Positions 17,983-20,987 of a stretch of DNA of 64,000 nucleotides are shown here, piece after piece (position 1 is the stretch's first letter; every line of letters starts with the position of its first letter). The notes under the pieces were generated by a model that saw only the letters and a program-made list of their open reading frames with translations, was not told the DNA's origin and did no database searches. Location of the stretch: assembly GCF_030409835.1 (NCBI RefSeq), contig NZ_JAUFQO010000005.1, forward strand, positions 124,001 through 188,000, read 5' to 3'. Position numbers and translations under genes: made by a program. This stretch comes from Lutimonas halocynthiae (GTDB lineage: Bacteria; Bacteroidota; Bacteroidia; Flavobacteriales; Flavobacteriaceae).

Positions 17983-18507
17983 TTATTGTAAAGATTGAAA
18001 ACTACTAAATTTGTAATCAGTGTCTTTTGCTAAATTATGACATGCAATACATCGGGCAGTACCTTCTGTTGAGCTTTGATAGGTTCCGTTACGTTTTTCA
18101 AAACTTGCATAACCCCAGTTTCCCGGATTATTAGAGAATTTACTGCTGTCTTTTATCGAATAATCAATTTGTTGAATTTCATTTGCTTCAATCGCTTCAT
18201 TAAATTTTGACATTTTTTTTACACTCCAGGCGATGTTTACTAAGATACTTCCTTCAGGAAAATCTTCTTTTTCATATAGCGCTTTATAGGCTTTTTTATT
18301 GGCTAGAATATAACGAAGTTCATTATTGTCAGTAACATAATGAGTGGCAACAATTTTATAATTTTTATAATCTTTAATTTCTTTAAAACGAAGCCCATTA
18401 TCAGGCATAATTAGATCTGGGACGTCAGAGAATAAAGTATAATCATCGTGTTTTTTACAAGATTGGAGTGATGCCATGACCAATAATAGAAGTATGATAT
18501 TTTTCAA
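17983..18507 (-). CDS. Cytochrome P460-like c-type heme lipoprotein
   Basis: A 174-aa lipoprotein (lipobox LQS-C17). The body (KNYKIVATHYVTDNNELRYI, FPEGSILVNIAWSVKK, WGYASFEKRNGTY) matches the cytochrome P460 domain, and the single heme-binding motif CIACH lies at residues 153-157, as expected near the C-terminus. True P460 enzymes oxidise hydroxylamine or are related to the NO-binding cytochrome c'-beta; the heme-crosslinking Lys cannot be assigned without alignment. It is the only gene on this strand, convergent with the APC permease, with a 353-nt gap behind it. Confidence 0.82.
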   Translation of the reverse strand: MKNIILLLLVMASLQSCKKHDDYTLFSDVPDLIMPDNGLRFKEIKDYKNYKIVATHYVTDNNELRYILANKKAYKALYEKEDFPEGSILVNIAWSVKKMSKFNEAIEANEIQQIDYSIKDSSKFSNNPGNWGYASFEKRNGTYQSSTEGTARCIACHNLAKDTDYKFSSFQSLQ

Positions 18508-18860: not shown

Positions 18861-20714
18861 ATGGATAATAGCTTTATGTTAAAAAAAATATTTCTTTTAG
18901 GTTTTCTTTTTAGCTCTTTTTTAAGTTTTTCTCAAGAAACAAAGTTTAATACCTATTCCCATACCGAGTTATTTGAGATGATAGCAGCCGAAAAGGATTC
19001 GGTTTTTGAATTAAAAGATGCTATCATCATTTTTGATAGAGAAAAAGATTCAATTTCCGGAACGATCTACAATAAGGAAACCAACCAATCAGATTTTATA
19101 AGGACTGACACAATCATTATAAACAAAGCCTTGGATTTTTACAATGTTCATTTTGAACATACAACAGGATACCCGTATATGACAGGAACAATGCATCATA
19201 TAAAGTTTGTTAAGCCAGTTAGTTTTGTCAACACAAGTACTTTAGTCATAAAAAACAGTGTGTTTCTTGATGAATTTGAAATAAGAAGTCATAAAGAAAT
19301 TAGCGAAGGGATAGAATGGCTAGACAAAAATTGGGGTATGTTTTCAGGTTTTATTTCTTTTGATAGCGTTACGTTTAAAAAAAGCCCTAATGTGGCTTTT
19401 CTTTTAGAGAATCATGAATTTTTCACTGCATTGTCAATTACACATTGTGATTTTTACCCACCTGATATGAGTAATGGATCGCGTATATCAGCTAATCATA
19501 TAACTTATGCTGATTTTAAAAATAATACTTTTTATGGAAGTGCAAGAATATACATTGGCTATAATAATGTTCAAAATTTAGATATAGGCTATAATAATTT
19601 CAAAGAATTTAATCCAAGTATTGTTCTGAAAAATTTTAAGGAATCATATGATGTATCCATCATTGGTAACGAGATAAGTGATAGGGTGCCATTTTCAGTT
19701 GATGTTTTAAGCCCAAATTTTGTAATTCCATGGGAGCAATTGAATTCTAAAATTATGTCACCTGAGGGCTATGAATTTTATTTAAGAGGTTTAAATAAAG
19801 AGGTGGGAGGTGATGAGTATGATTGGCGTGATTTATCTAGAATTGATTCGCTACAAAAAGATTATTTTGTCAACAAAATATATATTAAACATAAGAACAG
19901 TTATAAAAAAGAAATACAGTTGCTTGCTAAATTTCGTGATTTTTATGAAGAGCAACACGATCCGGAGGAAGCCAATATGGTTTATATGGCACTTAAGAAT
20001 TTGGAGACTGAGCGTTTAAAATTCCTATATAAATCAAACCCGGCTTTCAAAACCTATTTTAAATGGAAAATCAACCAGTTTTTAAAAGTATTTAGTGACT
20101 ATGGTACCGATCCTTCAAAGGCCATTATTTTTTCTATTTATGTCATCTTGGCTTTTGCTTTTATCTACTTGTTTTTCCCCAATACATGGGATTCTCACGG
20201 AAAAAATAGAATTTTAGACAGGTATAAGTTCTTTATTAAATATATGAATAAAAAGGCCGGTATGCATGAAGTGTATATGGATGAGAAGAAGGAAGCACTT
20301 TTGGAATATGATGAATTCAAGGCGATGGTGCAGTCATCCGGAAAAACGGTGCCCAAATTCTTTACGATTACCGCACTACCAATTTATAAATGGGCTGTTT
20401 CTGGTACAAAACTATCTGTTTCGTTACTTAAAAGAATAGACTTTTTAGAAGGGAATTGGGAGGAGTTACCAGAAAAGAAACGATTTTGGAAAAAAGTACT
20501 TTTAATAAGCGCCTTTTGTGTGGTACTTATTTATGATGTTTTTATAAAAATGCTCAATGCATTAATGCTTTCTGTAAACACGTTTACAACTTTGGGTTTC
20601 GGTGAAATACCAATCAAAGGACTGCCGAGGTACCTGGCTATTATTCAAGGATTTATAGGCTGGTTTATGTTGACCATATTTAGTGTGTCACTGATTACTC
20701 AGTTGCTTAAATAA
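18861..20714 (+). CDS. K+-channel-like membrane protein with exported repeat domain
   Basis: A 617-aa protein. A signal peptide ends at about residue 25 (LSFSQ); the ATG at 18876 would give an even more typical signal. Residues about 60-270 resemble a pentapeptide-like right-handed beta-helix, with a local IGYNN repeat (YIGYNNVQNLDIGYNNFKEF). A charged helical stretch (KDYFVNKIYIKHKNSYKKEI, EEANMVYMALKNLETERLKF) precedes a membrane helix at 421-439. After a roughly 100-residue loop the C-terminus has helix, pore loop and helix, with TTLGFGE at 576-582 matching the K+ selectivity filter T-x-G-[YF]-G-[DE]. The predicted topology is consistent: outside repeats, inside loop, filter facing outside. 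Ligand-gated ion conduction is inferred. Confidence 0.8.
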   Translation: MDNSFMLKKIFLLGFLFSSFLSFSQETKFNTYSHTELFEMIAAEKDSVFELKDAIIIFDREKDSISGTIYNKETNQSDFIRTDTIIINKALDFYNVHFEHTTGYPYMTGTMHHIKFVKPVSFVNTSTLVIKNSVFLDEFEIRSHKEISEGIEWLDKNWGMFSGFISFDSVTFKKSPNVAFLLENHEFFTALSITHCDFYPPDMSNGSRISANHITYADFKNNTFYGSARIYIGYNNVQNLDIGYNNFKEFNPSIVLKNFKESYDVSIIGNEISDRVPFSVDVLSPNFVIPWEQLNSKIMSPEGYEFYLRGLNKEVGGDEYDWRDLSRIDSLQKDYFVNKIYIKHKNSYKKEIQLLAKFRDFYEEQHDPEEANMVYMALKNLETERLKFLYKSNPAFKTYFKWKINQFLKVFSDYGTDPSKAIIFSIYVILAFAFIYLFFPNTWDSHGKNRILDRYKFFIKYMNKKAGMHEVYMDEKKEALLEYDEFKAMVQSSGKTVPKFFTITALPIYKWAVSGTKLSVSLLKRIDFLEGNWEELPEKKRFWKKVLLISAFCVVLIYDVFIKMLNALMLSVNTFTTLGFGEIPIKGLPRYLAIIQGFIGWFMLTIFSVSLITQLLK

Positions 20715-20747: not shown

Positions 20748-20987
20748 ATGAAAACAATGACCTGTCAACAATTAGGAGGCGCCTGTGATTTGGAGTTCAA
20801 TGCCGATACTTTTGAAGAAATGGCTGAAATGAGTAAGAAGCATGGAATGGATATGTTTCAAAAGAAAGATGCAGCGCATCTAAAAGCTATGAATGATATG
20901 CGGAGTTTGATGAAGACACCTGAGGATATGACCAATTGGTTTGACAAGAAAAGAAAAGAATTTGATGCCTTACCAAATAATAATTAA
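20748..20987 (+). CDS. DUF1059-like small protein
   Basis: A 79-aa soluble protein. The opening MKTMTCQQLGGACDLEFNAD, with its CxxLGG-C pattern, and TFEEMAEMSKKHGMDMF match the DUF1059 family. The C-terminal extension contains MKTPEDMTNWFDKKRKEFD. Function unknown. It is 33 nt after the channel-like gene and 27 nt before the oxidoreductase gene. Confidence 0.65.
   Translation: MKTMTCQQLGGACDLEFNADTFEEMAEMSKKHGMDMFQKKDAAHLKAMNDMRSLMKTPEDMTNWFDKKRKEFDALPNNN

Follow-up and report, generated by a model that had tools for sequence, protein, structure and literature searches.

The locus raises two questions: whether an exported domain and a K+-channel-type pore belong to one protein, and which way such a pore would face in the membrane. 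It lies in a 64,000-nucleotide stretch of Lutimonas halocynthiae DNA (the window), on contig 17 of a 3.99 Mb genome, and consists of a single open reading frame on the forward strand (18861-20714) with an ATG start and 617 residues. An earlier note, made from the letters of the window, had read both parts into one protein, and this reading was borne out: there is one reading frame, and its parts are conserved as a unit in a family of relatives.

An exported domain and a pore in one family

The protein opens with a signal-peptide-like stretch (residues 1-25; 18861-18935) whose last residue, Q25, is nearly invariant. The signal peptide of the earlier note was thus upheld, with 69 of 72 aligned sequences satisfying an ad hoc, crude signal-peptide rule; an x-x-small-Q site was present in 66 of the 72. 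AF2 modeled the window protein from 72 sequences with a mean pLDDT of 88.7 and a pTM of 0.78, and placed strands from residue 30 to 280. VIA-align laid residues 28-297 (18942-19751), the presumed periplasmic sensor, on the PL6 alginate lyase 8bwk (Z 14.9, rmsd 4.0, 214 residues). AlyGC, RbmB, further beta-helix enzymes and tailspikes came after it, the 50 rows listed being mostly beta-helix enzymes and tailspikes, with a Z of 11.6 at rank 50. Foldseek returned no match to the whole-protein model at E ≤ 0.001, and Pfam Beta_helix matched the N-terminal part below threshold (E 0.056). Judging from the model, the exported domain is a right-handed parallel beta-helix of the polysaccharide-lyase type. 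The likeness to PL6 lyases, RbmB and other right-handed beta-helix enzymes, which were compared by fold only, supports the fold and says nothing on function; a glycan ligand would be a guess from the fold. Unlike the PL6 lyases, the window beta-helix is fused to a membrane pore, and it has no sequence family over the cut-off.

The earlier note had taken this domain for a pentapeptide-like repeat. We rejected that identity, as the window protein had no match to the Pfam pentapeptide models at E ≤ 1; what it has in common with pentapeptide-repeat proteins is the beta-solenoid shape. Two short relatives (see below) have a sub-threshold Pentapeptide_3 match. An N-terminal profile match to the leucine-rich repeats of plant receptors was taken as repeat similarity, not homology.

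A helical juxtamembrane stalk follows (residues 301-417; 19761-20111), seen in the AF2 model, the alignment and VIA-align, and it ends in a pre-M1 or slide-helix-like helix directly before TM1 (residues 418-440; 20112-20180). Downstream of this hydrophobic helix lies a charged helical insert of ∼105 residues (441-545; 20181-20495), predicted to be cytosolic, so that the membrane helix and ∼100-residue loop of the earlier note were confirmed. Next come a hydrophobic segment that we call TM2 (residues 546-564; 20496-20552), a putative membrane span on hydropathy that is continuous with the pore helix in both of our models, and the pore helix itself (residues 565-575; 20553-20585), placed by the Pfam and NaK profile alignments. 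The inner pore helix (residues 588-617; 20622-20711) reaches the C terminus, as judged from AF2 and from where the family members end.

Between these two helices, the motif TTLGFGE (residues 576-582; 20586-20606) fits the pattern T-x-G-[YF]-G, and T577, L578, G579, F580 and G581 were invariant in the 72 aligned sequences, as were their flanks. Pfam Ion_trans_2 (PF07885) matched residues 547-614 with 25.5 bits over a cut-off of 22.5; four short relatives scored 16.4-21.6, under the cut-off. When a profile of the channel part was searched against solved sequences, the first match was 3tet, "Potassium channel protein", at an E of 0.057 that is not significant alone, the second was a SAVED-domain protein (E 0.081), and 25 of the 27 matches at E ≤ 10 were channel or transporter entries. 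We take 3tet to be a NaK variant. The channel part (residues 395-617), folded alone as a monomer from 75 sequences, gave a pLDDT of 82 and a pTM of 0.64. Foldseek found no match to this model at E ≤ 0.001; VIA gave Z scores of 8.1-9.9 to NaK, KirBac, SthK, KcsA and others, a Z of 8-10 being weak for helical proteins according to VIA's own note. On its sequence, we consider the C terminus to be a K+-channel-type pore, from which we infer a tetramer and K+ selectivity. The pore helix, filter and inner helix follow the pattern of NaK and KcsA-type 2TM channels, which were the best-ranked, weakly matching solved sequences; unlike them, the window protein adds an exported domain and an extra hydrophobic helix, and is without a C-terminal tail. 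The C-terminal end fell 36 or 37 residues past GFG in 100 of 102 family matches (duplicates included; the other two were a contig-end cut and a frameshift). Because these matches have no further domain beyond the last helix, gating by the exported domain is plausible from the sequences.

The fusion of the beta-helix domain and the pore is real, being common to a family of relatives, and the pore is not a chance likeness: Ion_trans_2 scored over its cut-off and the filter residues are invariant in 72 sequences. Homologues with the same order of parts, which the earlier note had proposed to look for, were found: signal peptide, beta-helix, stalk, TM1, insert, TM2, pore and last helix are common to 82 distinct sequences of at least 520 aa, the window's included (84 kept, after sequences under 520 aa, filterless sequences and loci fetched twice had been left out). 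Mean pairwise identity was lowest in the beta-helix (0.18), intermediate in the insert (0.40) and highest in the pore and last helix (0.83), the pore end being the least variable part.

The host genome has just this one full copy. Counting the host, a match was present in 1 of 22 genomes of the genus, 9 of 296 of the order and at least 10 of 395 of the phylum (three candidates scored per genome). Genome contigs were scanned and gave 85 relatives, of which 80 were kept, in 75 loci; they occur in Polaribacter, Algoriphagus, Roseivirga, Winogradskyella, Mangrovimonas, Marinifilum and many Bacteroidota MAGs. The window protein had no NCBIfam match at E ≤ 1 and is a member of a family without a name. 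The earlier note did not recall the architecture as described, and our search of titles and abstract starts in the open-licence PMC library likewise found no description of it.

Some entries in the collection were irregular. One genome (G030; loci L005 and L107) has a broken copy with three stops within the match, and Roseivirga sp. E12 has a pore-degenerate relative (L095:1062-2822) with an exported part and TM1 and no recognisable filter. One contig of identical name and size occurs in two different MAGs (L042/L043), and a Bacteroidota-like array lies on a Spirochaetales MAG contig (L044); both are probable binning errors.

Orientation of the pore

The direction of the pore turns on whether TM1 or TM2 is its outer helix. 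In both models, TM2 and the pore helix form one unbroken helix (residues 538-576). Each of the 50 rows that VIA listed for the model of the channel part begins between model residues 1 and 24, within TM1 or the preceding helix, and covers 77-107 residues of a tetrameric-channel pore; VIA re-ranks Foldseek's own matches and reports the first and last aligned residues only. Among these rows were KcsA 3f7y (81 residues, rmsd 2.2), AKT1 (92 residues, rmsd 2.5) and KirBac3.1 6o9t (95 residues, rmsd 3.8); the six NaK rows topping the list had an rmsd near 12 and were little informative. Because the rows all begin at or before TM1, it seems that TM1, not TM2, takes the place of the outer pore helix in the model. 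As the protein has a signal peptide and TM1 crosses the membrane once, a pore that uses TM1 as its outer helix would have to be inverted.

The short relatives bear on the same point. The distance from a YGxxP motif to the filter was 162-186 residues in 93 of 97 sequences measured and 80-95 residues in the remaining four, in which most of the insert is gone and the filter is retained. Three of 100 sequences lacked the anchor motif, and the count was confined to reading frames that end within 60 residues of the filter and contain [TSV]LGFG, which L095 does not. In the short forms, the segment in TM2's place had hydropathies of 0.78 and 0.81 (basic and weakly hydrophobic) and of 1.45 and 1.72 (borderline), compared with a mean of 2.25 (range 1.38-2.81) for TM2 in 72 long forms. 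Two forms without a clear TM2 thus retain the filter.

We also compared charges with those of 28 ordinary Ion_trans_2 channels from related genomes (the 28 of 30 fetched loci that had the motif searched for, most of them close relatives of each other). Between the filter and the last helix, the 72 family sequences carry a mean of 1.94 Lys plus Arg, versus 0.39 in the ordinary channels. All 28 ordinary channels continue for at least 45 residues past the filter and carry 1.96 Lys plus Arg at +37 to +46; this basic tail is missing from the family of the window protein. Because of TM1's apparent outer place in the model, the short forms, the charge on the filter side and the missing basic tail, we lean slightly toward an inverted pore.

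The strongest alternative is a subunit with three membrane spans, in which TM1 would be a mere anchor and TM2 the outer helix, the filter would be periplasmic as in KcsA and NaK, and the C terminus and gate would be cytosolic. Both the Ion_trans_2 alignment and that of a NaK-type chain (to residues 544-603) put the outer helix at TM2 rather than TM1, with nearly normal spacing. TM2 is hydrophobic, with a 19-residue mean above 1.6 at residue 555 in 93% of the 72 long forms, its N-terminal flank is basic (3.24 Lys plus Arg in 12 residues), and the borderline segments of two of the four short forms fall inside the long-form hydropathy range. The last ten residues do not differ from the same place in ordinary channels (charge of 0.01 versus 0.07). 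However, this arrangement sits poorly with a model in which TM1 is apparently outer and TM2 runs unbroken into the pore helix, with the filter kept in two short forms that have no clear TM2, and with a filter side more basic than that of ordinary channels and no basic tail past the last helix. We regard it as possible, at well under an even chance. The earlier note had described a C-terminal helix-pore-helix with TTLGFGE and put the filter on the correct side. Its filter motif and last helix stand, but TM2 as the outer helix is doubtful, given that both models fuse it with the pore helix; the side that it chose fits the hydrophobicity of TM2 and the Pfam and NaK alignments, but on balance the filter is more likely reversed, as the models apparently use TM1.

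A candidate mechanism and its known counterparts

Our best explanation, which we hold tentatively and at just short of an even chance, is one subunit of a tetrameric K+-type channel with a beta-helix sensor, an inverted pore and a gate under the sensor. The signal peptide would export the right-handed beta-helix domain, and the helical stalk would lead into TM1, most likely the outer pore helix, crossing from periplasm to cytosol. The charged insert would stay cytosolic and the pore loop would dip into the membrane from that same side; the inner helix would then return to the periplasm, where the protein would end. Such a pore would be inverted like those of GluR0 and glutamate receptors, and its inner-helix gate would lie next to the sensor, directly beneath the beta-helix. 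The beta-helix may bind a ligand of the envelope or from outside the cell, possibly a glycan, and this binding would move the stalk and TM1 and so open or close the K+ path at the inner helix.

The closest counterparts are the prokaryotic channels with a glutamate-binding domain, of which Group 1 has a K+-type filter and an Ion transport 2 domain (PMC2950845); an origin of glutamate receptors from a binding protein fused to an inverted K+ channel in bacteria has been put forward (PMC6385376). GluR0 and the Group 1 receptors resemble the window protein in that an exported sensor precedes a K+-type pore loop carrying Ion_trans_2 (PMC2950845, PMC6385376). The inverted order M1-P-M2 of GluR0 would, as argued above, be a further likeness. 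The sensor of GluR0 is a substrate-binding-protein domain split around the pore, whereas that of the window protein is predicted to be a beta-helix, and no Pfam model of a substrate-binding-protein-type ligand domain matched the window protein. Unlike GluR0, the window protein has nothing after the last helix and carries the ∼105-residue insert before the pore helix.

It is conceivable, though we would not count on it, that inverted pore-loop K+ channels arose in a second class of independent origin, represented by this family, in which a beta-helix of polysaccharide-lyase type replaces the glutamate-receptor ligand domain. In several Bacteroidota, this class would have expanded into translationally coupled arrays beside arrays of DUF6090 membrane proteins; the subunits of such an array would have the pore, and often the cytosolic insert, in common and differ in their exported sensors, so that mixed tetramers may read several ligands. 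A separate family with another exported sensor on a K+-type pore, perhaps inverted, would show that the glutamate-receptor route was taken more than once. It would offer a compact system for how an extracytoplasmic domain gates a K+ filter, and comparing the short with the long forms could test what the extra helix does.

Tandem arrays and genomic neighbors

The gene stands alone in the window; elsewhere, 9 of 72 loci carry it in two to four head-to-tail copies. The junctions between copies were one base long in 13 of 18 cases (the broken frames of L057 and L079 left out), and stop-N-ATG was found at 17 of 20 hand-picked junctions, some of them to DUF6090-like genes. Eight arrays had two or more full-length copies. 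In four of them (L014, L023, L024 and L035), at least one pair shared an insert identity of at least 0.89 and a beta-helix identity of 0.12-0.19. L027 had one pair with an insert identity of 0.85 (rounded) and another with the reverse pattern (beta-helix 0.57, insert 0.44), and insert identity reached 0.71, 0.70 and 0.81 in L016, L019 and L031. At synonymous sites, one of the three L023 pairs and two of the three from L024 were more alike in the insert than in the pore, and the remaining pairs of both arrays showed the reverse, a sign of mosaics. Overall, 14 pairs combined an insert identity of at least 0.85 with a beta-helix identity below 0.25, eight within a locus and six between loci (one of these within one genome). 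The idea of the insert as an assembly domain was only partly supported because many array copies have their best insert match outside the array. A hypervariable beta-helix was weakened as a reading, as close orthologues are alike in the beta-helix too (identity of 0.96 for L054/L055). The arrays would suggest a sensor repertoire in bacteria.

The inserts often common to array copies would also suit a protein that no longer conducts and retains its pore fold as a module for membrane assembly, relaying a periplasmic signal to the cytosolic insert, and the filterless L095 points the same way; we consider this improbable, given the invariant T-L-G-F-G and flanks and a pore end that varies least. 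Equally improbable is an arms-race or self-recognition effector, in which varied beta-helices would sense phage, toxin or neighbor molecules and the pore would collapse the membrane potential: tandem arrays in which near-identical pores carry unrelated beta-helices and the patchy presence in genus and phylum favor it, but PADLOC gave no family at E ≤ 1 for the window protein, phage records, plasmid records and viral contigs gave no family match, the orthologues L054/L055 share their beta-helix, and the window copy stands alone. An anti-phage or mobile origin was rejected on the same empty searches.

A same-strand DUF6090-like gene adjoins the channel gene in 19 of 72 loci, a count that includes near-identical contigs of two MAGs (L013 and L052), four loci from one genome (L026, L031, L045 and L052) and a neighbor without a Pfam match (L073). 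The 79 members of the DUF6090-like set were clustered by BLAST, and 56 of them have the motif; PF19578 scored over its cut-off in 5 of 9 tested neighbors. DUF6090 makes up ∼0.29% of genes in 23 genomes (900 genes per Mb assumed). Adjacency in at least 8 of 23 would arise by chance with a probability of ∼6e-13, or 1e-5 at the highest density seen, in a calculation that treats clustered genes as independent and uses hand-picked genomes. For it, 24 of the 72 loci were picked after their neighborhoods had been viewed, and 23 genomes were searched, that of L051 left out. The window has no DUF6090 motif, the host genome has 15 DUF6090 genes elsewhere, and DUF6090 is not named in the open-licence PMC literature.

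The neighbors of the channel gene in the window (aldo/keto reductase, amino-acid permease, cytochrome P460, oxidoreductase and amidohydrolase) give no hint of a ligand. The cytochrome P460 family gene lies upstream on the opposite strand (17983-18507), and a 79-residue reading frame without a Pfam match lies just downstream on the same strand (20748-20987). Among four same-genus genomes, the flanks had only a relative of the oxidoreductase, 41-43% identical. In L013, L022, L036, L040, L044, L051, L052 and other loci, DUF6090-like membrane proteins form arrays whose members have a conserved start and differ in the remainder, and one genome (G296) has up to 77 DUF6090-like matches. Inside the L013 array lies a histidine kinase with a long N-terminal part (L013:8629-10773), and proteins linked to it by BLAST lie near the channel gene in L023, L027 and L051.
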